Below the pieces are notes generated by a model. The model did not search any database, had not been told where the DNA came from, and was given only the letters and a program-made list of their open reading frames with translations. A program made the translations under genes and the position numbers. Shown in pieces: positions 10,667-36,944 of a stretch of 64,000 nt of DNA (the stretch's first letter is position 1; each line of letters starts with the position of its first letter). Source of the DNA: Verrucomicrobiia bacterium (GTDB taxonomy: Bacteria > Verrucomicrobiota > Verrucomicrobiia > Verrucomicrobiales > DEV007); NCBI GenBank assembly GCA_030425385.1, contig JAUIAH010000007.1:186001-250000 (forward strand), read 5' to 3'.

Positions 10667-10818
10667 CGTCACCGTCTTACTCGCTTCATCTCCAATGCCA
10701 TCATTCGGATTCTTGGGCCTCAGACAAGTAAATTCACGTCCTCCAAGCACGAATTCTTAGAAAAAGCGGACAATCTCGCAGCGCGGGAACCGATTTCTCG
10801 TATCGACTTGTAGATACC

Positions 10819-11886: not shown

Positions 11887-11925
11887 CATCTTCTTGTAGC
11901 CGAATTCTTGTCAATTCATAGAAAT

Positions 11926-12714
11926 ATGGAAATTAGACGATCTCGTTTCACAAAAGCGCCTCCGAATGCTTGGGCATTGAGTCTCTCAAGGATTATCCTG
12001 ACCCTTCTGATTCTCTTTATTCCTACTGCCTGTACGGTATTGGAAACAAAGATCGAGGAGGTAAGTGCTCTTCAGGATGATCTCAAGCGGTTGCCTGAAG
12101 CAGCGAAAGGCACTGGCGACTTCTTAGGGGCTTTGCTTCGAGGCGATAGTAAACGCCTCACGCTTAGTTCGAAGGGGCTTAACAGCGACGGAGCCAACCG
12201 CTCTGAACCTGCCGAAAACAATAAGCCCACGCCATTGACGCCGGAGCAGGTTGCAGAAAGGAAACGGGTGCTGACGGAATTGCGAGATTGGCGTTCCCAT
12301 TTGGAAGTGGGCGACCATTTCAAACATTACCAATGGGGGATTCCTGTCACAGATGAGGTCATCGCAATTACTGGACAAATGGTGCACTATCGTTGGAAGA
12401 ACTTCATGGGCGTGAGCAAACAATCGGTTCATATGTCATATGTGTTCCCACCGAAATGGGGATTAGTGGGCAAGATTCGGACGGCGTGCAATGGGTTCAA
12501 TTTAAACCATACGGCTATAGGAACGACCTATTCCGTTCAGGTGGACACGAACAATCCGGATCTCTTCACCTCTTTAGACCGGCTGGAAAAAGTTAATCGC
12601 GAAGTCAGCGAACAAGAGCCGAGCGAAATGCGTGACGCGGCTCAATTTTGCGCAAGTTATCGCCATGCGCTTGAGCGTGCTAATGACAGGTTAAAGAAGC
12701 GCAACAAAGAATAG
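11926..12714 (+). CDS. Putative lipoprotein of unknown function
   Basis: This 262-residue protein starts at ATG 11926; a TTG at 11908 would add six residues. A positively charged N-terminus precedes a hydrophobic helix ending IPTAC, a plausible lipobox cysteine, so membrane anchoring is likely. The rest is hydrophilic. It has a Leu/Lys-rich segment, a Pro-Glu linker (TPLTPEQVAERKR) and a C-terminal part with EVGDHFKHYQWGI and VHMSYVFPPKWG. I do not recognise the family. The coding sequence is clearly AT-richer than the upstream gene and marks the start of the AT-rich block. It is followed by a gene-poor stretch with fragments. Confidence 0.6.
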   Translation: MEIRRSRFTKAPPNAWALSLSRIILTLLILFIPTACTVLETKIEEVSALQDDLKRLPEAAKGTGDFLGALLRGDSKRLTLSSKGLNSDGANRSEPAENNKPTPLTPEQVAERKRVLTELRDWRSHLEVGDHFKHYQWGIPVTDEVIAITGQMVHYRWKNFMGVSKQSVHMSYVFPPKWGLVGKIRTACNGFNLNHTAIGTTYSVQVDTNNPDLFTSLDRLEKVNREVSEQEPSEMRDAAQFCASYRHALERANDRLKKRNKE

Positions 12715-12742: not shown

Positions 12743-12913
12743 ATGACAGTAGTAGGAGACAGCAGCGGTGAGCGCTGCGACTGCAATAACATCGATAAAG
12801 CTGTGGAGTTTATCAACAAGCGCCCACACGAGCATTACGTGATCTACAACGCCACCGACGATCTGATCAAGGCCGTGCGCGAACGCGTGCGAGCGACGAT
12901 CAAGAAAGGATAG
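12743..12913 (+). CDS. Small ORF (56 aa), possible gene remnant
   Basis: This lies in the only gap longer than 300 bp (12715-13068). ATG 12743 opens a frame with protein-like composition (KAVEFINKRPHEHYVIYNAT, then a basic RERVRATIKKG end). Directly downstream another frame carries a further protein-like stretch, FRLFQDAVGASFAGSTGIE through VERAVRHSNPN, ending at TAA just before 13060. The two together look like the frameshifted tail of a longer gene, but the call rests on composition alone. No Shine-Dalgarno is evident and no family was recognised. Nothing else is visible in the gap. Confidence 0.35.
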   Translation: MTVVGDSSGERCDCNNIDKAVEFINKRPHEHYVIYNATDDLIKAVRERVRATIKKG

Positions 12914-13068: not shown

Positions 13069-15396
13069 ATGTCTACCATGAAACGAATCAAGTCGCTCCG
13101 CTCTTGGATTCCTTTGTTGACCATCTTTATGATGGCCACCGTTTGGATTCTCAGCAAGCTTTCGGTGAAGGAGGCGACGCCTAATAGGCCTGCGCCAGCT
13201 ATTGCCGAAGGCGAAACGGTGCCAATCATCGAAACAGAAATCGGCTCGCCTCGAGACAAAGAGATTGCTGACGTGCCTGACGATCTGAAAACGGGCATGG
13301 TCGTACGAAACGAAGATGGAAGCATCAAAGAGCTTGAGCCATGGCATCCCTATATTGGGCGGGCGGCTGCCTATACGCTCAATGCTGAGAAGATCGACCA
13401 CGCTGTCAGTGAGTTGCGTCAGGGCAGAGAAAGCAGTGTGATGCTTGATCTATTTGAACATGGGACTTTTCGGTTAAACCTTGCTACGGAAGATCGCCTT
13501 GGAGAACGCATGGAGGGTTATTCGGTGAGAGGCAGTTTTCCGGGTTATCCGGGGAGTATAGGAGCGCTGGCGAAGTTTGGTGAGAGTATTGCATTAGTTG
13601 CCATCATTCCGAATCTCGGATATTTCAGATCTCGATATCACAATAATGGTGTCCATGGAGTGATTGAAGAAGTGAGCAGCATGGGGCTTTGTGGTTTATG
13701 TTCGAATGATCTTCATGGGGCAGCCAATGAAGGAGCAGGAATCTCCGTGGTAATTCCTGCCGGATACTCCATTGTATCAGACTTCGAGCGCGTCGATTCA
13801 ATTACTATCGACCTCTGTGTGGGGGTTACTCATAACGCTGCATTATGTGCGCAACAAGGTATTCAGTTGGACGATAGTCTCGGCAGGACCTCCGCGCTCA
13901 TTAAAAACACAACCCACTCCGTTCTGGCTGCTGCTATTGCCTTCGTGAACGCTGTTCACCTGCAGAGCGGATCGCCTGCTAAGTTTAGACTGGTGAGCAC
14001 TGCGCTGGATATTGATGAGCCGGAGGACAGTAGAACTCGCTCCGAACTAGATGAAATGAATCCATTTCACTCGTCGTATAACGACTCCAGGTTCTCGAGC
14101 CTTACCGAAATTGGGCGGAACACCGGAGCTGATTTGATAGTTCTGGTGCGGTCGGATGATGGGTCGGGCTTCTCAGGTAGTGGGTATATACCCTATATCA
14201 AAGAAAACGGTGAAGAGATTGTGGGTATAAAGGTGGGCTTTTCTGTAGCTGAAATCGCGGATCTGGAATTGGTGCTAGCGCACGAAATTGGTCACAACCT
14301 TGGTTGTCGGCATGATCGGGAAGAAGACGCTGAGAACCCATCTTTCAGACCTAGTGATCAGCCGTTTAAGCCAGCTAATTATGGCTGTTTGATAGATGTT
14401 GGGGAGCGCCAATATGGATCGATTATGAGTTATCCGAGAGGAGAGGGATTATTCGGGACTGGAGAACGCTTCTATTTGCCTTATTTTTCATCCACTCAGC
14501 TTAGACTCGTTAGTGCGACATCAATCCATTCCTTGTGGGGGCATGATGGCATGTCATGTAATAATGTGGATGTGATCGGGCATGTGTCACATTTGGTGCG
14601 AAACAATGGGGATGGTTACGTAATTGAGAGATCGGACGTGCCCAGCGTAAGGGATGCTCATTGGGCCAGCGAATATATTCAAGCATGTATTGATCTCGGG
14701 ATTATGAGCAATGGAGATGGGCAAGGTAATATTGATGATCGAGCGTGGATGAGTATGGAGCAATCTGCAACTCGAGGCGAGATGATACAGTTACTCACGA
14801 AGACGGCAGAATCTCTAGATCCAAACTTCTTCATTGAATATGCTGATCCTCCCGGCGATTATGATCCGTTCCCAATGGATGCCAAACTCAGAGAGGCTGC
14901 CGAAGGAGAGTTTTTTAAGAGCGTGCGCTTTCTGGCTTTTAATGGCGTGATCAATGCTTTGCGGGAAGATGGCTCGGTTAAGCCCTATTTTTATGTCAAT
15001 CGCCCTGCCACTCTTGGCGAGATGGTTCTTTTTGGTGCTAGAGTATTCGGATTCGGTGAAAGTGGTCAAGCTAGTGCAGAAGATATTTTCAATCATTGGC
15101 GGGACCAATTGCGTGACTGTAAATTCCAAGTTCCTGATGTGGGGGAGGGTGTGGGCTTTAAGAATAGTTATAGCACTGGTGCCGTTCTAAGTAGGAACTC
15201 GGTTAGCACTTGGCGAGATGAGGTCGGAATTGTGAATCTGGGATTCAATACCGGTGAAGGTAGATTGCACGACCAGGGCTATTCGGTGGCCGCTCGGCGA
15301 ACGGTTTTTGCGAAATTCATGATCAATATGTTGCACTACTTGATGACGCCGGAAGGGCACCGCAGCCCGCTCGGTGACCTTAGGGGATTGAAGTAA
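13069..15396 (+). CDS. Exported zinc metalloprotease (metzincin) with SLH-like C-terminal segment
   Basis: A 775-residue protein with an N-terminal hydrophobic helix (about 13-31), so it is exported or anchored. The catalytic core has HEIGHNLGCRH at 405-415, the metzincin zinc motif HExxHxxGxxH. The Met-turn follows in YGSIMSYP near residue 452. This resembles reprolysin/M12-like secreted proteases. Downstream, SVRDAHWASEYIQACIDLG followed by SATRGEMIQLL matches an S-layer-homology repeat (W-A-x-x-x-I ... TRxE), so it may bind the cell envelope. It is the first gene of a five-gene plus-strand series of secreted proteins; the next starts 21 bp later. Confidence 0.82.
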   Translation: MSTMKRIKSLRSWIPLLTIFMMATVWILSKLSVKEATPNRPAPAIAEGETVPIIETEIGSPRDKEIADVPDDLKTGMVVRNEDGSIKELEPWHPYIGRAAAYTLNAEKIDHAVSELRQGRESSVMLDLFEHGTFRLNLATEDRLGERMEGYSVRGSFPGYPGSIGALAKFGESIALVAIIPNLGYFRSRYHNNGVHGVIEEVSSMGLCGLCSNDLHGAANEGAGISVVIPAGYSIVSDFERVDSITIDLCVGVTHNAALCAQQGIQLDDSLGRTSALIKNTTHSVLAAAIAFVNAVHLQSGSPAKFRLVSTALDIDEPEDSRTRSELDEMNPFHSSYNDSRFSSLTEIGRNTGADLIVLVRSDDGSGFSGSGYIPYIKENGEEIVGIKVGFSVAEIADLELVLAHEIGHNLGCRHDREEDAENPSFRPSDQPFKPANYGCLIDVGERQYGSIMSYPRGEGLFGTGERFYLPYFSSTQLRLVSATSIHSLWGHDGMSCNNVDVIGHVSHLVRNNGDGYVIERSDVPSVRDAHWASEYIQACIDLGIMSNGDGQGNIDDRAWMSMEQSATRGEMIQLLTKTAESLDPNFFIEYADPPGDYDPFPMDAKLREAAEGEFFKSVRFLAFNGVINALREDGSVKPYFYVNRPATLGEMVLFGARVFGFGESGQASAEDIFNHWRDQLRDCKFQVPDVGEGVGFKNSYSTGAVLSRNSVSTWRDEVGIVNLGFNTGEGRLHDQGYSVAARRTVFAKFMINMLHYLMTPEGHRSPLGDLRGLK

Positions 15397-15417
15397 ACGT
15401 TTCTAAAACCAAGTCCT

Positions 15418-18400
15418 ATGATTTTTAATGTAAACGGTCGCTTGATCGGTCTATGGATTGCATTGCTGTTATCCTTTGGCTCGTTACTTTTGATTTCCGA
15501 CTCGGCAGAAGGCGCGGTTTTGGGCCGCAAGCTTGAGTATATCTCAGGGTCCATTGATTCTGCGTTGCCCCCTCCCATGACGGAGGTGCCTCTCTCGATT
15601 GAGTCCGGCGGTGTGATTCCGTTTGGGCCGGGGGAAACGCGCAGTTCCGATGGCAAGAAGCTAACTTACTATTGGTCGGCCCGCGTAGGAAGGCTGGAAT
15701 CGCTGGTGCCAGGGCATCACCAGATCCGGTATGTCGCTCCCCAAACGGGTGTGGCGGCCGAGGATTCTCTTTATCTTTGGATCGGTTCTGAGGGCGGCAA
15801 GACGCGGGAGTATCTCTTCAATATCACGATCACTCCGACCGCCGACTCAAGCTTGGGAATCGATCCCAGTGTGGGTGGTGATTTGACTGCGAGTTATGTC
15901 CCGGCATCGGGGACGTTTGATGTGTCGTATCGCTTGGGATCCGACGTAAGGAAGGCCTGGATTTCACGTTCTTTTGATGGACGGTTGTGGTCCAATGTCG
16001 ATATCATTGACCCGGTGACCGACTCGAATCGCCAAGGTGTGAGAAGTGTTACTGTCGAGGGGAGTGATAGCCGGAGCTTGGTTCATTTTCGTATTTATGC
16101 GGATATTGGTTTGCCTAAAGGAGTGGCTGGAACTCCGAAAGAGATTGCTTATGCGCCCGCGACCCCTGGGGGCAAGAATCTGGAATTGCCGACGGCTCCA
16201 ACACTTTCGATCAATGGCTACGAAACGCGTGCTCCACATGTGAGACTCGGTTGGTCACGGATCAATGATCGGAACAACGATGACAACGTTGTCTTCTATG
16301 AGGTTGAGTATGCGACCAACCGGAGCTTCGATAACTCAACACTGCTGAACATAGGGAATCCCGCTACTGGTGGGAATATGTATGAGCGATTGAGCTATAC
16401 GGTCACCGGCTTGGATGACGATCACACCTACTACTTTCGGGTGCGAGGGAGCAACCATGTGGGAGCAGGTTCATGGAGCAATGTTGACAACATTCGGATC
16501 AATATTCCGGACCTGCCGGTCTTCAGCCAATCGAACCCAATCGCTCCCGCCAACGGAGCGCAGAACGTGTCCAAGACACCCGAACTTCGCTTTAGTGTCT
16601 ACGATCCAGATGGCGATCCGCTCGATTTTGCCATCTACTGTGGCGAATCGCCGGGCCAGCTCTCAAAGATCCGAGGCTTTGGTGATTGGGGAGAGCAAGG
16701 CGGCATGCGGTTCTCGCCTTCAGAGTGGAGAGAGCCGCTTAAGCCCAACACGACCTACTATTGGCAAGTGCTGGCCCGCGAGGTGGGACATGGGATTGGC
16801 TACTATGATGGAACCTATCCAGCGTCGCCGACCTGGTCATTCACCACGGAGAACAGTGGATCGTCTCTACAGATCCAGCAGGTGACGTTGATCGCAGGGG
16901 AGGTGGCTCCAGAATCGACGCTGACGTATCGTGCAACGATCGCGAATCAAGGCAATGCGGCATCGGCGCCGAATACCTTGAAAGCGGCCTATCTCAAGAA
17001 CGGCAGTGAATGGCCCTTTCTCCACCTGGTGGGAGGCGATATCCCGGCATTGGATCCAGGGCAAAGCGCCGTGACGGAATTGTCTGTGCGCTTTCGAGAC
17101 ACCCTGTGGACATCACCCATGGGAACACTCTACGACAATGTTCTGGTCAGTGGGGCGTCGTCCATCCGGTTCTATCTGAGTCGGCGAGATGACCAGAACA
17201 CATCGACTCCCACGGCGACCGTTCCGGTCAGTTACGAGAGTGAGGGACCAGCGATTGAACACTTTCTTTTGAGAGGCTATAGCGGGTCCAATAGCACGCC
17301 TCGTGGGACTCGCCTACAAATCGATGCGGTGGTGCGCGATGACATTCGCACTTCAAGCGTGCGATTTGAGTATCGGACGTCTGCCAGTGGGGCGTGGACA
17401 TTCCTGGATGAATATACGGGTAACGTGCGACCCGTCATGGAATTTGCAGATGCCTCAAATGGTGGAGATACGGATGGCTCATCAGGATCCGTCAGGTGGT
17501 TTGTGCCCTACACTGTCCCAATTACCTCTGCCTTTGCCGTGCGGATGACTGCTTGGGATGACGAGGGACAACAGACGAGCGCTATTTCCCCAAATTTTTC
17601 CATCTATGACGGTAGTGTGACGGTGACTGTGGGGGCTACGGAGTTGGATACCTACAGGGTGGGCGATGTGGTTCGGTTCCCGGTGACCGCCGTTGTGCCG
17701 GGTCCCATCGTGTCCTACAAGATCGAACTCATTAGTTCAACTGGCCCCGAGAATCTGATCACTGAATCGGGATCGGTGGAGAATCCAATCGAGCTGCCCG
17801 AGGTGCTTAGTGTGGAGATCCCCCCTTACGATCGGTATGTTTTGAACGGCGCTTCGATTAGGGTGAGTGTGGAGGCGAGCCTGCCTTTTGGTCAAGTAGA
17901 TGGGAACGATGTCACCGATAATACCTTCAATCTTGTCGCCGCTGAGCCTCCTGCTCCATTTGATGAAACCATCGAGATGTATCCCCATCGGTATTCCTTC
18001 CCGTCAGGGTCCATTTGGAGAGAGGATCTGGTCGAACCCGTCACCCTAGCCTGGGAGAATGACGACCGTGTGCACACGGTCTATCGTCAGTGGCACTACT
18101 ACAACCTGAACAATACGGACCATTCGGGAGAGGCTGACTACCACGTTGTTTATGATAGGCTCCTGGATCAGGTAACCACCAAAGGATTGCCGAACAACTA
18201 TCAGGCTGTCGACTCGCATTGGTTTGGTGACCGGGCTTATATTCTTGCTGCCAACGGCCTCAATATTTATCTCTTCCAGGATCTTGGGAATAGCTTCACC
18301 GCGCCCCAGTATGTTGGGACTGTAGAGAGTGTGGAGCGGGCAGTGCCAAGGTTGTTTGAATATGGCGGGGAACTTTATTTTCAATATGTCGCGAACGCCA

Positions 18401-21400
18401 CGCAGTCTTCAGCAAACCGGAGAAATACTTTTCGGCGCGTGGCGCCATCGCTTGGTGCGCCTGTACAGCAAGCGCTGCAGTATCTTGGTCGGCGCGTACA
18501 TTATGGTCCTTACATTAGTAGTGACAGGGGTGTCTTCAATCGAAACAGCGATCTTACGGCAAGCTCGCTTTTGGTCGGCTTCAGCAGTAACCGATACGTT
18601 TTCGAGAATAGTGCAGGGAATCTCTCAGGTTTGCGCCAGGCCTACGAGAACTCGACTCATGTCGCCTACCTCTACAATCACAGCGGAGTAGCAACAACTA
18701 TTTGGAACCTCAATCTGAATGAAACCTACCATCGAGCATTTGATGACTATCTTTATGCGATTGGTAGGGGCAGTTCGGTAGTTCCAGGTGAAGATGGTAA
18801 GAACGTGATTGTTCGCCGAGATCGGCAGACGAATGAAGAACATCGCTATGCGATTGGTACTTACGACGGTCTTACCGATACTCTGGATCGAGCTGCGGTG
18901 TCTGATGGAAAGTGGGCTGCTTTGAGTTGGGGACGGTGGCTGACGGTTGCGAATCTGAGTGGGGACATTCAAGCGCCCGTAGTGGTCGCAAACGATATTC
19001 CAGAAACGTTCACGCCCAGCCACGCTACCTCTGTTCTCTGGTCCCAAGCGGACTCTGGTGGATCTGTTGTGCGTGAAAGCGTTGGCTACTGGAACAGCGG
19101 TAGTTTTGTCGTATTACATGAAACTTCAGGGCCGGATCTTAGCGGGAATCGTTCGGTGGATATTCAACTTCCCAATCTGCCTTCCGTACTTGTGAGAATC
19201 GAGTCTGAAGATGCCCATGGGAACACTGGAACTTACGAGCAAGTGATCAAGCGTGCTGCGCCCATCAGTATTACTGTTTCCGCTTCGCCATTGTCTGTGA
19301 ATGCTGGAGATCTCGTGACAGTACAATGGAGTGCATCACCGAATGATCCATTGCGGGTCTATACGGTGATGGTAAGGCGAAGTGGAGAAAGTGTGTGGGC
19401 TGTTGCTGGCCAGGCTATAGGAGATCACTACGCCCTGGATACTTCGGGATTCTCCGGGCAGTATGAGGTGAAAGTGGTTGCTGAAGGAGGGCAGGGCGTG
19501 CTTTCCGGGACTGTTGAGGTAACCGGTGACGATTTGGTATTCTATCCAGAAGAATTTGTCCCATCGGCGTCGACCTACTGGGTCGCAGCGGCGAATCCAA
19601 CGGCAGATTTGCGATGGTCAACGAATCAAGAGGTCTCAAGCGAACTTGCCTACGAAGTTCAGGTGCGTTGGGACCAAGCAGGTGACTTCCAGACAATCGC
19701 GACTACCCACGAGAAAGGGTACCGGATCGCCACAGATGGACACTCCTCGATAGAGTGGCGGGTGGGCGCAGTGTGGCGGGGCAGCGAGGTAATCTCTCCG
19801 AGTTTTGCCATGACTCTCGAGAGCGTGGGCAACGCGAACACACCAACGTTATCCCTTGAGAACGTAGAAACTGAGGATCCTTCAGTCCTCATCAGCTGGG
19901 AGGCTGATGGTGCAGACGAGGTGGTGCTCTATCGCTTGGATACGCAATCGGGTGACACGATCGAGTTGGCTCGTTTGTTAGGTGATACAGAAAGTTTTCG
20001 GGACGACACGGTTGTGCATGGAGGACAATATGACTATTCGATTGGCTTGGTCGTTCGTGGGGATGTCGGTGAGCAGGGGCCTAGCGCCGCAATTACGGTG
20101 AATACGCCGCTGCCTCTTGGCATTCAATTTGAGAATACGAACTACGAGACCGTGAATAACAACGAAATCACGGTGCGATGGAACCCCATTCTCCCTGCAG
20201 GAGAGACGGTTGTGTTTGCCGCTTATGAAGTGATCCTTCGCAGGGGTGGTGGCGCGATTGTGGAATCCGAAATCGCGCCTGCCGGAGGGGCTTTGCTGCG
20301 CGAGATGGCTTACGAAGGCTTGGCATATGGTCAAAGCTATGTCGTCGAGGTTTTCTCATTGGGCCCAGACGGTCGTCATTTTAATCAGACGCCAGTGCGG
20401 CATTACTTCTATACTGGACCAGACAATCGCCAGATCACTGAGCGCCCAGTCGTCCAAGCGATTCAGGATTCGGGTAGTATTCGCCTTCAGTGGAGTGCTC
20501 CTCCCAATGCTGATAGCTATGATGTATTCAGGATCAACGGGGAGGGAGCCCAAGAATGGCTTGCCAGGATCGAAGGAACCAGTTTCTCAGATCAGAGCTT
20601 CACTCAATCGGGGGCTTTCTCGTATATCATCCGTGCGCGAAATGAATTTAGTTTCTTGGATTCGCTGCCGACTTCGAGTTTCAATGTTGTACTTCCTCCC
20701 AGATGGATCTCGGAGCCACAAGACACCATCGTTCTCTATGGTCAGTCCGTGACTCTGATGGCGGAAGCTTCAGGGGGAGCTTCTTATCAATGGTTCCAGG
20801 GCGAAACCGGTGACGCATCAGTGCCGATAAACGAAGCCGTTTCCACTTCGTTTACAACGCCTCCGCTCACAGAGGACGCTTCTTATTGGGTGCGAGCTAT
20901 GAATTCAGATGGATCCATCGATAGCCGAACGGCTGAGATTACGGTCCAGAGGATGCCCGAGTTTGTTTCTCAGCCTCAAAGCACCATGGTGCTGCCTGGC
21001 AATTCAGCGACGTTGACTACGACTGTATTGGGAATCCCTTCTCCGATTGCGCAGTGGTATGAAGGGAGCGTGGGCGATACCTCCAACCCGATAGCGGGAG
21101 CAAACTCTTTCACTTACACGACGCCTTCTCTCGCCGCTGATACGAGCTACTGGGTCGCTGCGACAAACGTTGTCGGGACAGTGGCAAGCGATCAGGTAGT
21201 GGTCACGGTCGCTGAGTTGCCGACGATCACGGACGGCCCTGCAAGCTTCACGATCAGCCCTGGTGAATCGGTTTCCTTGCAAGTCGAGGCCTCTGGGATC
21301 CCTGCGCCGACGTATCAATGGTATGTCGGAGAGAGTGGTGATGTCTCCAATCCGATCGCGGGTGCGGCATCACACACATTTACCTCTCCAGCTCTATCGG

Positions 21401-23712
21401 AGTCCACGAACTACTGGGTTCGCGTGAGCAATATCGCTGGGATGGTAGATAGTATCACTAGCGCGGTGACTGTCCAAGAGGCTCCCTCTTTCGTGAGCCA
21501 CCCACAGAATCAAACCGTGAGTCTGGGAAGTTCGGTGATGCTTACCGCTGAGGTCAGAGGTCTTCCAGCGCCTACCTACCAATGGTATCGGGGAGTGAGC
21601 GGGGACCTTAGCCAGCCTCTCGTGGGAGAAGATTTAGCGGAGCTGAGCATTCCATCAGTCCAAGAAGATGCCGCCTATTGGGTGAGGGCGTCGAACTCGG
21701 CTGGCACTAGCAACAGTGATACGGCTACGATTACGGTAAGGCAGGCACCTGTGATCACCACTCAGCCGGTAAATACGACCATTCTCGTTGGGGAAACGGC
21801 AGGTTTTACAGTTGCTGCATCGGGAATCCCTGCGCCATCTTATCAATGGTTCTCTGGTATGCGTGGAGATACTTCGACTCCTGTGGTGGGCGCTACAGGC
21901 CCAACCCTAACAACACCGCCGCTTTCCGAGGACGGTCGCTACTGGGTTCGAGTGACCAATGTCGCGGGAACCGTTGATAGCCATGAGGCGCTCGCAACCG
22001 TCCACCAGTTGCCAGAGATTACCAGCCAACCCCAAGGAGGCACGATATTGCATGGGGATACGTTTACATTAAGCGTGAGTGCTTCTGGCATTCCTGCACC
22101 TACCTATCAGTGGTATCAGGGAATGGTCGGTGATCGCAGTAATCCGATTGGTGGAGCAAGCTCTTCCACCTATGAGACACCGCCACTGACCACTGACACG
22201 AATTACTGGGTTGAAGCGACCAATGTGGTGGGAGTAGTGGCAAGTAACCAGGTGGTAGTGATCGTCGAGGATGCAAATGCCGACGATGACAATGATGGTT
22301 TGCCGAATGATTGGGAGACCGAACATGGGCTTGATGTCTCAGACCCGGCCGATGCGGATTCCGACCTGGATGGGGATGGCTACTCGGCTCTTGTCGAGTG
22401 GGCGTTGTTGCAAGACCCCAACCGCATTGATGACAGTCCCATGGAACACGCCATGGAAGGGGGCGCGGAAATGCACCTCAGTCTAAGTATCCGCAAGGGT
22501 GCGTTGAAGTACCTTGGGTATTCCATTGAGTATTCAACCAACGAGTTCGAAACCTGGCAGGAATTGCAGGATTATGGGTGGAATCGGTCTATCGAAGTGG
22601 TGGACGGCCAGACGGAGCGCCATCAATGGCAAGATCCTGCTGATTTTTCTCCGGCAGAGCCGCTTACGGAGCAGACATTGGTCGCGGCCCAACCCGAGGA
22701 GAATGCATTATTCGGAGGTAGGGTCGATGCGACTGACGATCTCGTTGCTGTGGGGGCGTATGGATACGGAAACGCTGGCGTCATCGGTAAAGTCTCCGTT
22801 TTTTCGAATGAAGACAACCAGTGGGAATTGGAACAGACAATTGACGACCCATCTGGAGACACACAAGGCTATTTTGGAGACTCGTTGCACCTATACGGAG
22901 ACCGCCTGATGATCGGCAAACGAAGTGATGCCGTTTACCTCTACAAGCGCCAGTCAGGTATTTCGCCACCTTGGACGCTCGAGAGAACGTTCCAAATAGA
23001 AGGCGGCAATGGCCTTGGGTTGGATATGCTTGGGCAGTTATCCATTATTGGATCAACCGACCGCGTCGAGCTTTACAAGCATGATGGTGCCGATTGGATT
23101 CTATCGGATACCGTGAGCCAAACTAGTGAGGGCTTTGGTTTCTCGTGTGCGCTTGGAAATGGCTGGTTAGCAGTTGGGGCGTCAGCTTATGAGGGTTCCC
23201 AGCCTTTTGTTGGCCGGGTATACCTTTATAGAATCGATGACGAGGGAGCCGCAGATGAAAGATTAATCATTGAGAATCCGGAACCTCAAGCGCTTGCAGG
23301 TTTCGGAAAAAGAGTGGCTTCTGATGGTTCACACTTAGCAGTTGAATCAAAAGGAGGCGTTTATGTGTATAAGGTGAATCTATCGCAAACACCTCAATTT
23401 GAACTGATTTCGCAGCCTGGCTTGGCATCGTGGCATCGTCATTTACACAAAGGCTATTCCGGCTACCTATTGCTTCAATCGGGAGGCAATAGCATTGGTG
23501 TGACTGGTATGGATTCCGGATCTCCGTCATTTTTGCATTCCCCTGTTTCCCAATTCACTGCGGCATTGACCAATCGTTGGATGTTCATCGGTGAATACCT
23601 TGCTCAGGAGTCAGATCTAACCAGAGCCGGAAGAGTGCGGGTTGTTCCCCTAAGCAACCAGATTTCAGAAGTGGTGAGGCGATTCTATAGGGTCCGTTTT
23701 TGGAAACGGTAA
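15418..23712 (+). CDS. Giant secreted modular protein (2764 aa): Fn3, six Ig-like repeats, TSP3-like, FG-GAP-like
   Basis: A signal/anchor helix lies at about residues 8-30. An Fn3 domain follows (about 258-365), then a CARDB-like stretch and other beta-sandwich repeats. Six tandem Ig-like repeats of about 88 residues occupy 20692-22275, each with YQWYxGxxGD ... YWVxxxNxxGxxxS. A thrombospondin type 3-like calcium segment (DANADDDNDGLPNDWE, about 2286-2340) comes next, then an FG-GAP/propeller-like region (about 2415-2740) and a final FYRVRFWKR. The size and modules suggest an extracellular adhesin or matrix/predation factor. No catalytic domain is recognised. It lies between a metalloprotease gene and another secreted-protein gene, with 21- and 31-bp gaps. 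Confidence 0.85.
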   Translation: MIFNVNGRLIGLWIALLLSFGSLLLISDSAEGAVLGRKLEYISGSIDSALPPPMTEVPLSIESGGVIPFGPGETRSSDGKKLTYYWSARVGRLESLVPGHHQIRYVAPQTGVAAEDSLYLWIGSEGGKTREYLFNITITPTADSSLGIDPSVGGDLTASYVPASGTFDVSYRLGSDVRKAWISRSFDGRLWSNVDIIDPVTDSNRQGVRSVTVEGSDSRSLVHFRIYADIGLPKGVAGTPKEIAYAPATPGGKNLELPTAPTLSINGYETRAPHVRLGWSRINDRNNDDNVVFYEVEYATNRSFDNSTLLNIGNPATGGNMYERLSYTVTGLDDDHTYYFRVRGSNHVGAGSWSNVDNIRINIPDLPVFSQSNPIAPANGAQNVSKTPELRFSVYDPDGDPLDFAIYCGESPGQLSKIRGFGDWGEQGGMRFSPSEWREPLKPNTTYYWQVLAREVGHGIGYYDGTYPASPTWSFTTENSGSSLQIQQVTLIAGEVAPESTLTYRATIANQGNAASAPNTLKAAYLKNGSEWPFLHLVGGDIPALDPGQSAVTELSVRFRDTLWTSPMGTLYDNVLVSGASSIRFYLSRRDDQNTSTPTATVPVSYESEGPAIEHFLLRGYSGSNSTPRGTRLQIDAVVRDDIRTSSVRFEYRTSASGAWTFLDEYTGNVRPVMEFADASNGGDTDGSSGSVRWFVPYTVPITSAFAVRMTAWDDEGQQTSAISPNFSIYDGSVTVTVGATELDTYRVGDVVRFPVTAVVPGPIVSYKIELISSTGPENLITESGSVENPIELPEVLSVEIPPYDRYVLNGASIRVSVEASLPFGQVDGNDVTDNTFNLVAAEPPAPFDETIEMYPHRYSFPSGSIWREDLVEPVTLAWENDDRVHTVYRQWHYYNLNNTDHSGEADYHVVYDRLLDQVTTKGLPNNYQAVDSHWFGDRAYILAANGLNIYLFQDLGNSFTAPQYVGTVESVERAVPRLFEYGGELYFQYVANATQSSANRRNTFRRVAPSLGAPVQQALQYLGRRVHYGPYISSDRGVFNRNSDLTASSLLVGFSSNRYVFENSAGNLSGLRQAYENSTHVAYLYNHSGVATTIWNLNLNETYHRAFDDYLYAIGRGSSVVPGEDGKNVIVRRDRQTNEEHRYAIGTYDGLTDTLDRAAVSDGKWAALSWGRWLTVANLSGDIQAPVVVANDIPETFTPSHATSVLWSQADSGGSVVRESVGYWNSGSFVVLHETSGPDLSGNRSVDIQLPNLPSVLVRIESEDAHGNTGTYEQVIKRAAPISITVSASPLSVNAGDLVTVQWSASPNDPLRVYTVMVRRSGESVWAVAGQAIGDHYALDTSGFSGQYEVKVVAEGGQGVLSGTVEVTGDDLVFYPEEFVPSASTYWVAAANPTADLRWSTNQEVSSELAYEVQVRWDQAGDFQTIATTHEKGYRIATDGHSSIEWRVGAVWRGSEVISPSFAMTLESVGNANTPTLSLENVETEDPSVLISWEADGADEVVLYRLDTQSGDTIELARLLGDTESFRDDTVVHGGQYDYSIGLVVRGDVGEQGPSAAITVNTPLPLGIQFENTNYETVNNNEITVRWNPILPAGETVVFAAYEVILRRGGGAIVESEIAPAGGALLREMAYEGLAYGQSYVVEVFSLGPDGRHFNQTPVRHYFYTGPDNRQITERPVVQAIQDSGSIRLQWSAPPNADSYDVFRINGEGAQEWLARIEGTSFSDQSFTQSGAFSYIIRARNEFSFLDSLPTSSFNVVLPPRWISEPQDTIVLYGQSVTLMAEASGGASYQWFQGETGDASVPINEAVSTSFTTPPLTEDASYWVRAMNSDGSIDSRTAEITVQRMPEFVSQPQSTMVLPGNSATLTTTVLGIPSPIAQWYEGSVGDTSNPIAGANSFTYTTPSLAADTSYWVAATNVVGTVASDQVVVTVAELPTITDGPASFTISPGESVSLQVEASGIPAPTYQWYVGESGDVSNPIAGAASHTFTSPALSESTNYWVRVSNIAGMVDSITSAVTVQEAPSFVSHPQNQTVSLGSSVMLTAEVRGLPAPTYQWYRGVSGDLSQPLVGEDLAELSIPSVQEDAAYWVRASNSAGTSNSDTATITVRQAPVITTQPVNTTILVGETAGFTVAASGIPAPSYQWFSGMRGDTSTPVVGATGPTLTTPPLSEDGRYWVRVTNVAGTVDSHEALATVHQLPEITSQPQGGTILHGDTFTLSVSASGIPAPTYQWYQGMVGDRSNPIGGASSSTYETPPLTTDTNYWVEATNVVGVVASNQVVVIVEDANADDDNDGLPNDWETEHGLDVSDPADADSDLDGDGYSALVEWALLQDPNRIDDSPMEHAMEGGAEMHLSLSIRKGALKYLGYSIEYSTNEFETWQELQDYGWNRSIEVVDGQTERHQWQDPADFSPAEPLTEQTLVAAQPEENALFGGRVDATDDLVAVGAYGYGNAGVIGKVSVFSNEDNQWELEQTIDDPSGDTQGYFGDSLHLYGDRLMIGKRSDAVYLYKRQSGISPPWTLERTFQIEGGNGLGLDMLGQLSIIGSTDRVELYKHDGADWILSDTVSQTSEGFGFSCALGNGWLAVGASAYEGSQPFVGRVYLYRIDDEGAADERLIIENPEPQALAGFGKRVASDGSHLAVESKGGVYVYKVNLSQTPQFELISQPGLASWHRHLHKGYSGYLLLQSGGNSIGVTGMDSGSPSFLHSPVSQFTAALTNRWMFIGEYLAQESDLTRAGRVRVVPLSNQISEVVRRFYRVRFWKR
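20692..22275 (+). repeat. Six tandem Ig-like coding repeats of 264 bp
   Basis: Units start at about 20692, 20956, 21220, 21484, 21748 and 22012. Units 2 to 6 keep an exact 264-bp (88-codon) spacing; unit 1 is aligned by extrapolation and is slightly divergent. Each unit encodes P-x-[IFV] ... GIPAPTYQW[YF]xGxxGDxSxPIxGA ... YWVRxxNxxGTxxS. The sequences have diverged at DNA level, so this is an old tandem duplication rather than a recent expansion. Confidence 0.9.
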
Positions 23713-23743
23713 TGGATTTCAAAGCAACAAGTCTATATCGGTC

Positions 23744-25624
23744 ATGAAGATCTCACGTATTGCCACTCCTTGGATGATTGCTTGTATTGCAGTTCCAACT
23801 GTGCCTTTGCCTGCCCAGACCTCAAGTCAAGTCTGCCACGGTGCCGAATCAAGTTTGATCACGGTCGACACGCGGAAGCAAGGGCTATTGGTGACGCCAA
23901 TTGCCGAGAGTAAGCCTGCGGCGGATGGTTCTGGCTTGGTGTATGAGCGGGCGCTTCCTGTCAACGGTGTGGAATTGGATTCTGTAGTGGATGACGTCGA
24001 GGCGCGAGCGGAGGGCTCGGGTTTTGACATGGTGCTTGGGGTTCCTTCGCCAGGACAATGCGTGGAAATCTTTTCAACGTCGACTCTTGGAGATCCGGCA
24101 AGCTGGGAGAAGGAAGCCACTATCGTGACCCCGTCAGGCCGTGTTGGAATCTCGGATTCGACTGCAGACTCGGAAACCCGCAAATTCTATCAGGCAAGAG
24201 CGTTCTCATTCCCTGCTGGCGAAACCGGGTTTATTGACGATTTCTGTGACTCTTCGACTGAAGTGAATCAGGATTCTGATAACTACTATCTTCGGGAGAA
24301 TAACGACCATTTGGGCCTAGAGATTTGGTATCAATTGCCAACGGAGCTGATTTCAGTTGGTCCCGTAACGCGAGTAGAGTTCACGGTTTTAGAAGGAGGA
24401 ATTGAACCTGTCGAGCTGGATGAGTCATTGTTAGGCCCAGTCGATCTTGGGCAACCTTTGAGAGTGGTATGGGACGCTCCTCCCAGCCCGACAACCGATG
24501 CGGGATTCTATGTGATCCGAATGGACGTCTATGTGAACTTTCAGCTGGAGTGGAGTTCTCCGGTGGGCGATGCCGATGGGGATTCCTCTAACGGATGGCA
24601 ATGCCCTCAGGGTGCGCTGGTCGTATGGGATCCTCTCTGGCGGCACCGGCCAATACTCCATCTGGGTGCGGCAAGCGGAGGCCATGAGTGTCCTATCGAC
24701 CCACTTGCTTTCTTGGATGTGACGGAACTGTGGGTGAAGTCAGGAGAAGAGGATATTCTCGTAACCGAGGATCCATCAGTAGATGATCTTTGGAATCATA
24801 ACACGAAAGAGCATTTTCTCAACATTCCCGATGGGTTACGAATAGGTCAAAACTGGAAAATTGACATTGGCATCATTGAAGATGCGCAACCTGCGATTAT
24901 GTACACGACTTCGAATCATCAAGGAGCCAATAACAACTTTCTGTTTCTTCAATATTGGATGTTCTATGAATTCAGCAACAGCGCCTTTGATGCTGCTGCT
25001 GATCCTCATCACGAAGGTGACGTTGAATATGTGCAAATGGCGATTCGCCTAAGTGCACCTGCTTTACCTGAGTATAAAGCCCTTTGGATGTCTCCATATG
25101 CGGTGACGGCTTCCCAACATTATTACGCTCAAACAATCGCGTGGATACCAGAAAGCGGCCCACCGGGAAACCCTAGAATTCTCAACCGGGTTGAGCATGT
25201 GGACAATGGTAGGTTTGCGATATTTGTTGCTGAAGGAACTCATGCGACGTATTTGGCTGCTGGCACCTATCCTGCCAGCCGTGATCTACTTTACCCAGGA
25301 TGCGATGGCGTTCCCTTTCTTGGTTCAGGGCTACCTTGGAATGATCCGTTTGGACACTACCAAGAGTCCGCGCAACGTGGGGAACACGCCTACAGCCTTA
25401 TTCCCATGCCAAACATCTTCCGTAACTGGAAAGGACGTTGGGGCTACAAAGAAACGGAGGAAGGTGGCGGCTTTTGTGCAACTGATCGGAATGGTCCCCC
25501 GGGTCCCTTTAGCCGAGCAGCGTACAGGTCGCCTGATGACCCCGTTTATTTGTTGTCGAACCCAGTTGAATTGCATAACGGGGGCCTTCGCAACGGTGAA
25601 GCCTCGCCGCTGTTTCTCCGATAG
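23744..25624 (+). CDS. Secreted Vps62-like domain protein
   Basis: A 626-residue protein with a signal peptide ending PLPAQT (about residue 27). An early segment carries the recurrent module seen in this window (VEIFSTSTLGDPASWEKE ... RKFYQAR, about 24026-24220). The C-terminal half resembles the Vps62 family: FLQYWMFYEFSN, then HHEGDVEYVQ, a YYAQTIAW segment, and FAIFVAEGTHATYLAAGTY. These correspond to the HxGDWE ... SQH ... GSHASY pattern of that family. The biochemical role of the family is not established. The gene is 31 bp after the giant protein gene and 15 bp before the next, so it is probably in the same operon. Confidence 0.65.
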   Translation: MKISRIATPWMIACIAVPTVPLPAQTSSQVCHGAESSLITVDTRKQGLLVTPIAESKPAADGSGLVYERALPVNGVELDSVVDDVEARAEGSGFDMVLGVPSPGQCVEIFSTSTLGDPASWEKEATIVTPSGRVGISDSTADSETRKFYQARAFSFPAGETGFIDDFCDSSTEVNQDSDNYYLRENNDHLGLEIWYQLPTELISVGPVTRVEFTVLEGGIEPVELDESLLGPVDLGQPLRVVWDAPPSPTTDAGFYVIRMDVYVNFQLEWSSPVGDADGDSSNGWQCPQGALVVWDPLWRHRPILHLGAASGGHECPIDPLAFLDVTELWVKSGEEDILVTEDPSVDDLWNHNTKEHFLNIPDGLRIGQNWKIDIGIIEDAQPAIMYTTSNHQGANNNFLFLQYWMFYEFSNSAFDAAADPHHEGDVEYVQMAIRLSAPALPEYKALWMSPYAVTASQHYYAQTIAWIPESGPPGNPRILNRVEHVDNGRFAIFVAEGTHATYLAAGTYPASRDLLYPGCDGVPFLGSGLPWNDPFGHYQESAQRGEHAYSLIPMPNIFRNWKGRWGYKETEEGGGFCATDRNGPPGPFSRAAYRSPDDPVYLLSNPVELHNGGLRNGEASPLFLR

Positions 25625-25639
25625 CCTCCACTTAGAGAC

Positions 25640-26947
25640 ATGAGATTCATTGAATTCATGAACTTTCAGGTTCTTCTCTATACTACGTCACCAACGCTCG
25701 TTGCACTTTTGAAGACGGTAATGATAATGGTGTGTGTGAGTGTTGCCAATGGGCAAGATTTCACTGCGTCTCCTTCAGTAGGCAATGAGGTGCGCAGAGG
25801 ATCAGGGTATCGGCTGAGCTGTGTATCTGTGAGCAACACGACAAGATCGGCTGTTCTTCGAGTAAAGCCTGCAAATGGAACAGCATTTCATTCGGCAGGC
25901 ACGGTGGAGATCCATCAGGACGCCACCGATCAATCTGGGGCACTGCATCGGGGAATGGTCTTGGCAACGCGTCGCTACGAAGCGGGTGAAGCAGGCCCCT
26001 TTGATTTTACAATTCCTTTGGCATTCTCAACCGGCAGCAAATTATACTACGCTGTGCGAAGGAGCCCGTCGTTAGGCACTTTGGATACGAACCAGTGGGA
26101 TGGTCCAATTGCAATCACGCAGACCGCTGCGGCATCACCCCCGGTGGTATCCAGGGTGAGAGCATCGCAACAGCCCGGGAACCAGTTGGTTGAGATTCTC
26201 TATGACCTTGCGGATGGGAACACGGCTGTCGTGAATGTCTCGCTTGAGGTCTCGTCCGATGGCGGGGCAAGTTATGGCGTTGCTGCGGCTAGTGTGAGTG
26301 GGGATATCGGGTTAGTGGCTCCTGGAAGTGGAAAGAAGATCATCTGGAATGCTGGCAAAGACTGGAGCGATCAAGTGAGCAACCAGATGCGCTTTAAAGT
26401 GACGGCTTGTGAAACGGTAGCACCCACCGTTGGGCACCGTTTTTTTGGAAACATCACCATTACTAACGTGAGCGGTTCCAATACGGTGGTGATCACTGAC
26501 GCGGCTGGGCAGCCGCTTCCTGGAGGGATGCAAGTCCGAGTGGGCGCGTTTTCGAAAGAACGTGGAGAGATTCTTTCCGCGGTGGAGACACGGTCGCTAC
26601 AAGATTTGGAGAATAGCTTCCATGAAGTAGCTTCACTTTCTATAGGGTTTAATCAGTTGCCCGGTCTATATCTAGCAGATGTTTCGGGATGGCTTCCGTC
26701 GAATCTGGAAGGCGCTCCCGTTCACGTGGTGATCTCCGATCATGGGAATAATATGGGTAATGCCAGTGAACTGCTTATTTTTGAGCATTCTGCGACCTTT
26801 CAGCTTGCGCCAGCTTTTACTCTTCCAGATGCGCTTTCATTTGAGAATGGGGTGTTAATCACAGGGACCTGGAACGGAGCAGGATCGGTGACTACTGGCA
26901 ATTTCACGACAACGAATACTGCCAACATGATCTCCGTATCGCCGTGA
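25640..26947 (+). CDS. Secreted protein of unknown function
   Basis: A 435-residue protein with an N-terminal hydrophobic segment ending VSVANGQDF, so it is probably secreted. The middle contains a beta-rich unit of about 80 residues (QLVEILYDLADG ... SLEVSSDGGASYGV ... APGSGKKIIWNAGKDW). I know this unit from exported PVC proteins, often beside FGE-like domains, but cannot name it. The remainder is beta-rich without motifs. The stop codon overlaps the next gene's GTG start (GTGA at 26944-26947), indicating translational coupling with the downstream secreted protein. Confidence 0.6.
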   Translation: MRFIEFMNFQVLLYTTSPTLVALLKTVMIMVCVSVANGQDFTASPSVGNEVRRGSGYRLSCVSVSNTTRSAVLRVKPANGTAFHSAGTVEIHQDATDQSGALHRGMVLATRRYEAGEAGPFDFTIPLAFSTGSKLYYAVRRSPSLGTLDTNQWDGPIAITQTAAASPPVVSRVRASQQPGNQLVEILYDLADGNTAVVNVSLEVSSDGGASYGVAAASVSGDIGLVAPGSGKKIIWNAGKDWSDQVSNQMRFKVTACETVAPTVGHRFFGNITITNVSGSNTVVITDAAGQPLPGGMQVRVGAFSKERGEILSAVETRSLQDLENSFHEVASLSIGFNQLPGLYLADVSGWLPSNLEGAPVHVVISDHGNNMGNASELLIFEHSATFQLAPAFTLPDALSFENGVLITGTWNGAGSVTTGNFTTTNTANMISVSP

Positions 26948-28179
26948 CTCGGGGACTACTTGTTTTCCTAGCGGGGTCGATCTCCATATCGTTTTTCGTA
27001 GAGGCTGAGCCGCCGCCGAATGATGACTTTGAGGATGCCATTGATTTGCCGAGTGAGGCGTTCTTCGATGTGGAGATGCGATTGCACGAGGCGACGTTTC
27101 AAGCGCGGCAAGGAGAAGAAGATGAGCCACTCTGTGGGCACACGGCTTGGTATCGTTACACGCCACCGGCATCTGGCGTGCTCCAGTTTACGCGGGGCAC
27201 TTTAGGGAAGGCGCCTATTAGTGATCGACTGCGTCTGGAGATCTATCGTGGTGATCGCTTGCGGGACTTGGCGAAGATTGAGGCGACGAATTCGAGTCTT
27301 TTTGTCCTGAAGAAGGAGCGGATTCCGGTTCAGGAAGGGGTTCCAATCATGATTCGAGTGGCCTATGGTGGTTGTCTGTCGACACCTGACTATGGCCACT
27401 ATTATTTGCAGGGCGAACTGGAGGAGCGCCCGTTTCGTAGCCTGTCGTTTGTGGAGCCGTCAGGGCATTGGAACGATTTCTTTGAAGATCGCTGGAAACT
27501 GGGGGATGCTACCGAGGTAGCGATCCTCGGAACGAGTGCGTTCGCGACGAGGGAGCTGTTTGAGCCGGAATCTTCGGGGGCGCGGACGGTTTGGTATGAA
27601 TGGGAGGCTAAGCACTCGGGTAAAGTGGTGGCTTATTTCGACTATGCCGATCACTTTGCGTATGGCTTGCACGAGATCAACTCGATGGCGGTGTATCGCG
27701 GGAAGGCATTGCAGGAGCTTGCGTTGGTGGTGGAGGACAAACGCTTCACGGGATTCGGGTTGTTGGGTGCTCTAGCGAAAGCCCTTCAGGTGGAACCGAT
27801 GCGAGAGGTGGTCTTTGATGCGGTGGCCGGGGAAACGTATCAGTTCGCGGTCGGCCAAACCTCGACTGGTGGTGGCTGGCATGGAGGCCCGCATCTGTTG
27901 ATGCTCTTCGCGGAGGGCGACCAGACGACGGCTGAGGGAGCAATGGGAACGCTTACGGTTGAACGCGAAGGTGCCGGTCGTCTCCGCCTGGAATGGGACC
28001 TTGGGGATCTTCTTCCGACGAACCCTGAGCTTTGGTTACTCGAATCCAGCGATCTGCGTTCTTGGGATCCCGTGATTCCGGTCCGCGAAGCGGTGGGCTC
28101 GCATTTGGAACCGGGAAAAGGAGATGGGAATCAGGCGGATGACAGGCAGCGTTTTTATGTGATCGGGCTTGAACGCTGA
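26944..28179 (+). CDS. Secreted protein with PPC-like domains
   Basis: A 411-residue protein started by GTG within the GTGA overlap; the signal helix ends about residue 22 (SFFVEAEPPP). The first half is a pre-peptidase C-terminal (PPC)-like beta-sandwich (PPPNDDFEDAIDL, GHTAWYRYTPPASG), repeated in the second half (ARTVWYEWEAKHSGKVVAYF). The end carries the recurrent module: LWLLESSDLRSWDP followed by RQRFYVIGLER. PPC domains are usually accessory domains on secreted enzymes, but no enzyme domain is present here. It is the last gene of the plus-strand secreted series and converges on the AAA gene at 28211. Confidence 0.7.
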   Translation: MTRGLLVFLAGSISISFFVEAEPPPNDDFEDAIDLPSEAFFDVEMRLHEATFQARQGEEDEPLCGHTAWYRYTPPASGVLQFTRGTLGKAPISDRLRLEIYRGDRLRDLAKIEATNSSLFVLKKERIPVQEGVPIMIRVAYGGCLSTPDYGHYYLQGELEERPFRSLSFVEPSGHWNDFFEDRWKLGDATEVAILGTSAFATRELFEPESSGARTVWYEWEAKHSGKVVAYFDYADHFAYGLHEINSMAVYRGKALQELALVVEDKRFTGFGLLGALAKALQVEPMREVVFDAVAGETYQFAVGQTSTGGGWHGGPHLLMLFAEGDQTTAEGAMGTLTVEREGAGRLRLEWDLGDLLPTNPELWLLESSDLRSWDPVIPVREAVGSHLEPGKGDGNQADDRQRFYVIGLER

Positions 28180-28210: not shown

Positions 28211-29173
28211 TCAGTTCTGGAGTTGAGCGGCATTCACAATTTTGATTTCACGTCCAACGACCGACACCACACCTCTATTTCGCCCTTCGCTGAGAATGGT
28301 GCTGACAACGGCGGAGCGCAGATGGTTTTCGATCGTGTGCCGCAAAGGACGAGCGCCGAGGTGGCGGTCGGCTCCTTGTGAGAGCAGAAAGGGATAGACA
28401 TCCGGCGTCACGGTCAGGGCGATACCCTGCTCCTGATAACGGGCGATCTCCCCATCGGTCATGAGTTTGGTGATGGTGAGCAAGGAATCTTGATCCAAGG
28501 GATCGAAGGTGAGGAAGTGGGCGATGCGGCCTACGATTTCGGGGCGGAGGGTGCGTTCGGCTTCGGCTTTGATGAAGCGGTCGCGGGCGGATGTGGGAAG
28601 GTTTGAGATTTCTGTTAGGGCGTGGCTGGCGAGGTTGGTGGTCATGAAGATGTGCCAGTGGCTGAAATCTAAGGTGTCCCCGTTGGCGAGGGTGATGCGG
28701 GCGGCGTCTAGCATTTGAAGAAGGAGATCCAGGATCTTAGGGTGGGCTTTCTCGATTTCGTCGAGGAGGAGGATGCCGTGGCCGTGGCTGTCGGTGACTG
28801 CTTCGGTCATGCGGGAGGCGAGGAGGCCTGGGTCTGATTTGCTTTCGCCGATGAGTCGGTTGAGCGCGTCTTGGAGTTGGAACTCGCTCATGTCGAGCCG
28901 GACGAGAGGGATGTCCAAGTAGTGGGCGAGAACGCGGACGATCTCGGTTTTGCCGACACCGGTGGGACCGAGGAACAGGTAGGTGCCCAGGGGACGGCCA
29001 GGGGTGTTGAGGCCGAGGGCGGCTGCTTGGATGGCTGGGACGAGTTGCTCGATGACCTTGTCTTGGCCGATGATCTTCGAGAGAAGGTGTGCGCGTAGTT
29101 CTCGCAAATGCTCAAGCAATTCTGAGCTATGCCAGGGTTGCTTATGCGGAGGGTTTGGCTGGGGCGGCGTCAT
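28211..29173 (-). CDS. ClpB/ClpA-like single-ring AAA+ ATPase (short)
   Basis: The 320-residue protein corresponds to the second AAA+ domain of Clp/Hsp100 proteins. It has IIGQDKVIEQLVPAI (34-48), Walker A GPTGVGKT (69-76), Walker B ILLLDEIEKAHP (134-145), a sensor-like MTTNLAS, and the small C-terminal domain with GADRHLGARPLRHTI. The first AAA ring, the N-domain and the ClpB middle coiled coil are absent, so it is not ordinary ClpB. It follows a lipoprotein gene (32-bp overlap) and a TrbI/VirB10 fragment on the same strand. It may therefore once have served a type IV secretion system; that is inference from context. Confidence 0.8.
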   Translation of the reverse strand: MTPPQPNPPHKQPWHSSELLEHLRELRAHLLSKIIGQDKVIEQLVPAIQAAALGLNTPGRPLGTYLFLGPTGVGKTEIVRVLAHYLDIPLVRLDMSEFQLQDALNRLIGESKSDPGLLASRMTEAVTDSHGHGILLLDEIEKAHPKILDLLLQMLDAARITLANGDTLDFSHWHIFMTTNLASHALTEISNLPTSARDRFIKAEAERTLRPEIVGRIAHFLTFDPLDQDSLLTITKLMTDGEIARYQEQGIALTVTPDVYPFLLSQGADRHLGARPLRHTIENHLRSAVVSTILSEGRNRGVVSVVGREIKIVNAAQLQN

Positions 29174-29699
29174 TGCGTGTGGGTAGCGGTGGTTCCGTGA
29201 CCGTTGGTGAGGCGAGTTTGGCGCGTTGGGTCTCGAGGAGATCTTTGAGTTCGGTTCGCCACTGGTTCATTTCGGTTTCCATGGATTCGAGGCGTTTGGT
29301 GACTTCTTGCTGGTGACGTTTCTCGGCTTCGATCTCTTGGTCGTTGATGGGTGCGTGTGTGAGGCTGTTGTCTGGTGAAGGGTTGGGGTTGTCGGTGAGG
29401 TTCCATTGGCCGGATTCGTCGATCCGATAGACGGGGTGCGCCTCGTGCATGGCCTGATGGTCGGGAGAGAGGGTGCGGCCTTGGTGGTAAGTGGTGATTC
29501 GCTCAGGGACTCGTATGCCTTTGGGCGGTGCGCTGGTGCGTTTGGGCGATTGCTTGGGGGCGGGTTCGGGTGCGACGTAGACATGAGGTGCGAGACGTTC
29601 GCGGAAGGTGGTTGTTGCCTGCCATGGTTGGGGGCGATTGGTGCAACTGATGCACAGTTGCGCGATGGCGAAGAAGGTGATGGTCGAGATGCGTTTCAT
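29142..29699 (-). CDS. Putative lipoprotein in TrbI/VirB10 neighbourhood
   Basis: A 185-residue protein if started at ATG 29699 (MKRISTITFF), giving a signal ending QLCISC with a lipobox cysteine; upstream in-frame extension would run into the trbI fragment. The mature part is Pro/Lys-rich (APEPAPKQSPKR). It has a YRIDESGQWNLTDNP segment and a C-terminal coiled coil (EIEAEKRHQQEVTKRLESME). The position, 19 bp after the trbI fragment and overlapping the AAA gene, suggests an accessory lipoprotein of the conjugation apparatus (VirB7/TrbH-like role possible). I do not recognise a family. Confidence 0.6.
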   Translation of the reverse strand: MKRISTITFFAIAQLCISCTNRPQPWQATTTFRERLAPHVYVAPEPAPKQSPKRTSAPPKGIRVPERITTYHQGRTLSPDHQAMHEAHPVYRIDESGQWNLTDNPNPSPDNSLTHAPINDQEIEAEKRHQQEVTKRLESMETEMNQWRTELKDLLETQRAKLASPTVTEPPLPTRNDAAPAKPSA

Positions 29700-33853: not shown

Positions 33854-33890
33854 GTGCTGAACGGTTGGGGGCCCGGGAATGAGCCGTTTC

Positions 33891-36890: not shown

Positions 36891-36944
36891 CCCTGGAAAT
36901 GCGAACCGTCCTTGGAAGGTACGGAATTCTTTAAAAAGAAATGT

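Follow-up and report, generated by a model that had tools for sequence, protein, structure and literature searches.

A metzincin and giant Fn3/Ig protein gene pair among the exported-protein cargo of an apparent T4SS-derived insert in a Verrucomicrobiia genome

Results

Layout of the locus

The 64,000-nucleotide stretch of DNA analysed here (hereafter, the window) contains five large ORFs on the plus strand at 13069-28179, denoted P1 to P5, which encode proteins of 775, 2764, 626, 435 and 411 amino acids (aa). P1 and P2, P2 and P3, and P3 and P4 are separated by 21, 31 and 15 bp, respectively, and P4 and P5 share a 4-bp GTGA overlap; the coordinates, gaps and overlap given in a preliminary description of this DNA were all reproduced. 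The export signals attributed there to all five products were recovered as well, in the form of a hydrophobic N-terminal stretch in each of the five proteins, as judged by a simple hydropathy test rather than by a signal-peptide predictor. The five genes do not form a sharply delimited block because two more exported-like genes precede P1 on the same strand, one GC-rich (10819-11886; GC3 0.786) and one AT-rich (11908-12714; GC3 0.515). The product of the first resembles phosphodiester glycosidases (NAGPA) by eye only, with no Pfam match and no relative among 142 genomes, and that of the second is putatively a lipoprotein or an exported protein. In the 354-bp gap upstream of P1, a short ORF (12743-12913, plus strand; about 56 codons) was read by eye and may be a gene remnant. 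There are no tRNA genes in the window.

Genes of the type IV secretion system (T4SS) lie on both sides of this array. On the left is an intact gene for a VirD4/TraG-like coupling ATPase (T4CP; 6587-8023, plus strand; TrwB_AAD_bind, 2.5e-13), followed by a convergent gene for a Ser/Thr kinase with a C-terminal FGE-sulfatase domain (8104-9948, minus strand, with the start set at 9948 by inspection; Pkinase, 5.9e-46; FGE-sulfatase, 1.9e-37) and by a gene for an ECF sigma factor (9956-10750, minus strand; Sigma70_r2, 1.8e-4, and Sigma70_ECF, 5.3e-4, both just under the curated cut-offs). On the right, all on the minus strand, are genes for an AAA+ ATPase resembling the second ATPase domain of ClpA/ClpB (28211-29173; AAA_2, 1e-32; ClpB_D2-small, 4.2e-13), for a small lipoprotein in the VirB7 position (29142-29699, with the start assigned by inspection to the lipobox signal) and for the C-terminal remnant of VirB10 (29719-30216).

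An apparent T4SS-derived insert flanked by duplicated host DNA

All these genes are confined to a 23.66-kb segment (6569-30228) that is flanked by direct repeats. The left copy (5898-6568) comprises the 3' end of a CotH gene and the decayed 3' ends of a PIG-L gene and a dehydroquinate-synthase-like gene, and the right copy (30229-31389; 1161 bp) comprises intact PIG-L and synthase ends and a truncated CotH 3' end. The two copies are identical at 462 of 468, 105 of 110 and 94 of 102 positions across three blocks, with two internal deletions in the left copy; this decay argues against a simple assembly fault. Because the left copy continues from the intact CotH gene, and the PIG-L and synthase ends are intact in the right copy, the segment appears to have interrupted the CotH-PIG-L junction, with 1161 bp of host DNA duplicated. 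Inspection of same-genus genomes did not reveal an empty site; a contig of one of them (G003) was found to contain the HAD, synthase and PIG-L genes, with no CotH match.

The T4CP gene begins 18 bp inside the left junction, and the VirB10 remnant is cut off at the right one. Insert ends located inside VirB10 and immediately ahead of the T4CP gene are what a random fragment would give, which could point to fragment capture during the repair of a broken chromosome, by sister-copy end joining. Single crossover with a circle carrying a host fragment, with 1.16 kb of homology, would yield an identical layout, and the data do not separate the two; we regard fragment capture as a possible but somewhat doubtful route. 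The choice between the two concerns the route of insertion only.

The closest T4SS counterpart is a locus on contig C566 of G003, where the T4CP gene, its product 73-74% identical to that of the window, is followed by convergent genes for the AAA+ ATPase, a lipoprotein, VirB10 (TrbI, 1.3e-10), a VirB9-like protein (CagX, weak) and a VirB4-like ATPase; the VirB8 and VirB6 positions are occupied by proteins without a Pfam match that were assigned by place and appearance. T4CP, AAA+, lipoprotein and VirB10 thus appear in matching order and orientation in the two loci. The window lipoprotein is 48% identical over 107 aa to the protein encoded between the VirB10 and AAA+ genes of G003, and the VirB10 remnant is 42% identical over 197 aa to residues 185-381 of G003 VirB10. 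The AAA+ gene is T4SS-associated in this order, adjoining T4SS genes in G003, in G080 and on contigs C39 and C48 of the window's own genome, and related T4CP copies are present in three further places in that genome. Unlike the window, the G003 locus has further VirB genes and no kinase or ECF gene beside the T4CP. The insert includes the coupling protein (VirD4/TraG) typical of conjugative T4SS and, from the set VirB4, VirB6, VirB8, VirB9 and VirB10, the C-terminal remnant of VirB10 only, with fuller sets in relatives; no relaxase or integrase was detected in a scan restricted to the larger ORFs of the insert.

The two loci also differ in the spacing between the T4CP and AAA+ genes, which is 0.4 kb in G003 and about 20 kb in the window. 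This difference, together with the location of P1-P5 between the T4CP gene and the AAA+, lipoprotein and VirB10 genes of an insert flanked by duplicated host DNA, supports the earlier proposal that these genes are the cargo of an element.

The kinase and the ECF sigma factor

The kinase may belong to the backbone of the element rather than to its cargo because convergent T4CP-Ser/Thr kinase pairs recur in five other loci: G000:C39 (59602-66971), G000:C48 (about 74785-82160) and G000:C8 in the window's own genome, G011:C113 (L040) and G006:C157 (L042). An ECF gene is also present at some of these loci; in C39, C48, C8 and G011:C113, an exported-like protein of 622-702 aa, of one family, is encoded beside the kinase. 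A second kinase/ECF pair beside T4SS genes is found in G000:C39 (90873-96862), together with a gene for a VirB4-like ATPase (P-loop_TraG). The C39 and C48 T4SS loci are related, being 91-94% identical in rearranged blocks that are separated by differing DNA.

Hanks-type kinases activate ECF sigma factors in Xanthomonas and Vibrio (PMC13147305, PMC8999054), and in the PknS-EcfK and PknT-EcfP systems, as in the window, the kinase gene adjoins the ECF gene. Unlike members of ECF43, which lack the DAED motif in region 2.2 (PMC8999054), the window ECF retains, by inspection, a DCED motif and so falls outside that group; because this motif is kept, phosphorylation need not be required. The window ECF matches 34 other places in its own genome, all about equally distant, and was accordingly rejected as a specific link.

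P1, a predicted reprolysin-like metzincin

P1 (13069-15396) is a putative signal-anchored protease that scores above the cut-offs for Reprolysin_3 and Reprolysin_5 (37.2 bits for Reprolysin_3, cut-off 22.4). The sequence bears HEIGHNLGCRHD and a Met-turn; specifically, AHEIGHNLGCRHD conforms to the metzincin zinc motif HExxHxxGxxH/D, and the Met-turn reads GSIMSYP. By motif and profile, P1 is a reprolysin-like metzincin, with predicted proteolytic activity. Thus, the metzincin assignment of the preliminary description holds, whereas the SLH-like segment that it noted falls short of the curated cut-off of 20.8 bits (15.7 bits for the whole protein and 19.2 for the C-terminal part). Searches of P1 against solved structures yielded nothing useful.

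The nearest named metzincin by model is Mep72, a biofilm-associated protease of Pseudomonas aeruginosa. The NCBIfam model NF052434 matches the metzincin domain of P1 with E 2.9e-10, at 39.4 bits against a cut-off of 645, which places P1 far outside the Mep72 family. Both Mep72 and P1 are exported proteases fused to non-catalytic C-terminal domains (PMC4334185); instead of the carbohydrate-binding domains and the BamI partner of Mep72 (PMC4334185), P1 has SLH-like repeats and is paired with a giant Ig/Fn3 protein.

The P1-P2 pair in a second genus

P2 (15418-23712) is a giant exported protein of 2764 aa in which Pfam recognizes one Fn3 domain, one FG-GAP repeat and about six Ig domains, in line with its earlier description as an Ig/Fn3 protein. 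A single full-length relative of P1 (3e-49, 31% identity) was identified among 142 relatives, in the Verrucomicrobiia bacterium isolate HKST-UBA34 (G034; JAGRPC010000020.1), and the gene adjoining it encodes a protein that is 38-39% identical to residues 12-1761 of P2. The two G034 genes are on the same strand, about 6 bp apart, so that the adjacency of P1 and P2 is kept in two genera. The P1 relative retains the HExxHxxGxxH motif and aligns with P1 across the AHWA..YI and TRGE/LGE motifs, with no SLH match at E 0.1. Its GC3, 0.503, is the lowest among the listed ORFs of the contig, most of which are at 0.6-0.8. An alignment search for P1 in 387 genomes across the phylum, a draw for which the inclusion of G034 is not stated, returned only the window's own genome. 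For P2, a genome-contig scan based on short peptide patterns, which distant relatives can escape, detected no relative besides that in G034, and viral contigs gave just two weak partial matches (28-29%).

The G034 locus resembles the window in that the metzincin and giant Fn3 protein genes are co-oriented and an ECF sigma gene diverges from P1. It differs in that there is no P3-P5, and the P2 relative is shorter (1918 aa) and lacks the Ig repeats. The kinase was rejected as a module common to the two loci: that of G034 is of the WD40 type, with WD40 repeats and no FGE domain, whereas that of the window is of the FGE type. The pair is apparently not tied to the window element because no T4SS match was detected on the 44-kb G034 contig.

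These observations bear on the possibility that P1-P5 serve the conjugation element itself, in mating-pair contact or the exclusion of rivals, rather than the lifestyle of the host. The location of these genes between the T4CP and AAA+ genes would fit such a role, as would the exported-like proteins adjoining the kinase beside the T4CP in other T4SS loci; however, the latter are unrelated to P1-P5, and in G034 the P1-P2 pair is found away from any T4SS gene, so that we consider a function in the element quite improbable.

P3, P4 and P5

P3 (23744-25624; 626 aa) is an exported-like orphan, with no relative in 142 genomes, in plasmids or in the genome-contig scan and no Pfam match in an hmmscan search. 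It had been described as Vps62-like, an assignment that found no support: a search of the genome with the PF06101 model at E 10 returned nothing, and the family was not reported by hmmscan of P3 either. Single-sequence AlphaFold modelling gave a mean pLDDT of 30.5, and searches against solved structures yielded nothing useful. P4 (25640-26947) is an exported-like mosaic of two regions that occur separately in relatives: residues about 159-281 are represented in many genomes, and residues 270-412 recur, within single ORFs, in all three genomes of the same genus. P5 (26944-28179) is exported-like, and its relatives throughout the order are repeat domains within large proteins, with P5-like domains in 28 of 142 genomes, including its own. 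Neither P4 nor P5 belongs to a Pfam family.

Base composition and the extent of the putatively acquired block

The host reference, with a mean GC3 of 0.653 (sd 0.049), consisted of 130 ORFs of at least 300 aa from sampled contigs and from the parts of the window beyond the insert. The GC3 of P1 (0.479; z -3.5), P2 (0.546; z -2.2), P3 (0.487; z -3.4) and P4 (0.506; z -3.0) is within or below the lowest 2% of these ORFs. The exported-like host proteins have a mean GC3 of 0.645, and large exported host proteins are not generally as low as P1-P4. In contrast, P5 is ordinary (0.608; z -0.9), with 20 of the 130 host ORFs at or below this value, and the kinase and ECF genes are also of ordinary composition. 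The AT-richness ascribed to the whole operon in the preliminary description is therefore real for P1-P4 and does not extend to P5, and its boundaries do not fit a five-gene block. Given the ordinary composition of P5, the kinase and the ECF, and the GC-rich gene at 10819, the cargo is not a single import. Nor is the suggestion that the five genes moved as a unit supported: only the P1-P2 pair recurs, in G034, P3 was found nowhere else, and relatives have segments of P4 and P5 singly, in scattered places. Single scattering among relatives, which the preliminary description named as evidence against its proposal, is thus observed for P4 and P5 but not for P1-P2. A C-terminal pattern of the ExSxDLxxW...FYR type, within about 10 residues of the end, was observed in 6 of 194 sampled host ORFs, including some exported-like proteins, and in two window ORFs (33158-38549, minus strand); it could be a sorting tail.

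Could P1-P5 be an ordinary host operon of exported proteins, as is common in Verrucomicrobiota, with an accidental T4SS neighbourhood? The genome contains nine metzincin-domain matches, seven of them over the cut-off, parts of P4 and P5 are widespread in the order, and the composition of P5 is host-like, all of which is compatible with this explanation. It is countered by the low GC3 of P1-P4, by the lack of relatives of P1 and P3 in the three same-genus genomes and by the enclosure of P1-P5 in an insert whose two ends carry T4SS genes, and we give it little credence. One of the nine metzincin-domain matches, a strong match to Reprolysin_3 (G000:C59:179826-180215), falls in an open frame of 1504 aa that precedes the window by about 6 kb.

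Discussion

The explanation we consider the best, with somewhat better than even confidence, is that a piece of a T4SS element was inserted together with cargo whose core is the pair of a protease and a giant surface protein, P1 and P2. Under this scenario, a piece of a Verrucomicrobiota conjugation element would have entered the chromosome between the CotH and PIG-L genes; a 1.16-kb stretch of host DNA would have been duplicated, with one copy on either side, and most VirB genes of the element would have been lost. The cargo, about 20 kb located between the T4CP and AAA+/VirB10 genes, would be a mosaic of compositionally differing genes, in which the metzincin and the giant Fn3/Ig protein are encoded together. 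In the likeliest working model, P2 would be secreted and form an adhesive or matrix fibre, and P1, held in the envelope by its N-terminal anchor and the SLH-like repeats, would trim or shed P2 or digest P2-bound material, with P3-P5 as accessory exported proteins. Expression of the operon may be turned on, in response to an envelope signal, by the adjacent ECF sigma factor and membrane kinase. A role in attachment and degradation, as proposed in the preliminary description, is plausible from the domains, prey or polymer as the target being speculative, and judging from the sequences, the P1-P2 pair probably functions in adhesion or matrix building.

A broader generalization is that T4SS elements of this order carry exchangeable, kinase/ECF-controlled exported cargo beside the T4CP gene and are regular vehicles of giant surface proteins, with P1-P2 being an undescribed kind of protease-adhesin pair; we consider this rather unlikely. 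The locus illustrates well the horizontal acquisition of surface proteins and is not a wholly new type of system.

Giant exported proteins are plentiful in Verrucomicrobiota and mostly unexplained. The locus described here connects one set of such proteins with a conjugation element; it is also an instance of a large T4SS-derived insert bordered by long duplications of host DNA. The parts of greatest interest are the T4SS cargo site and the P1-P2 pair: the metzincin and the Fn3 protein are encoded next to each other in two genera, which makes the functional link between them directly testable.
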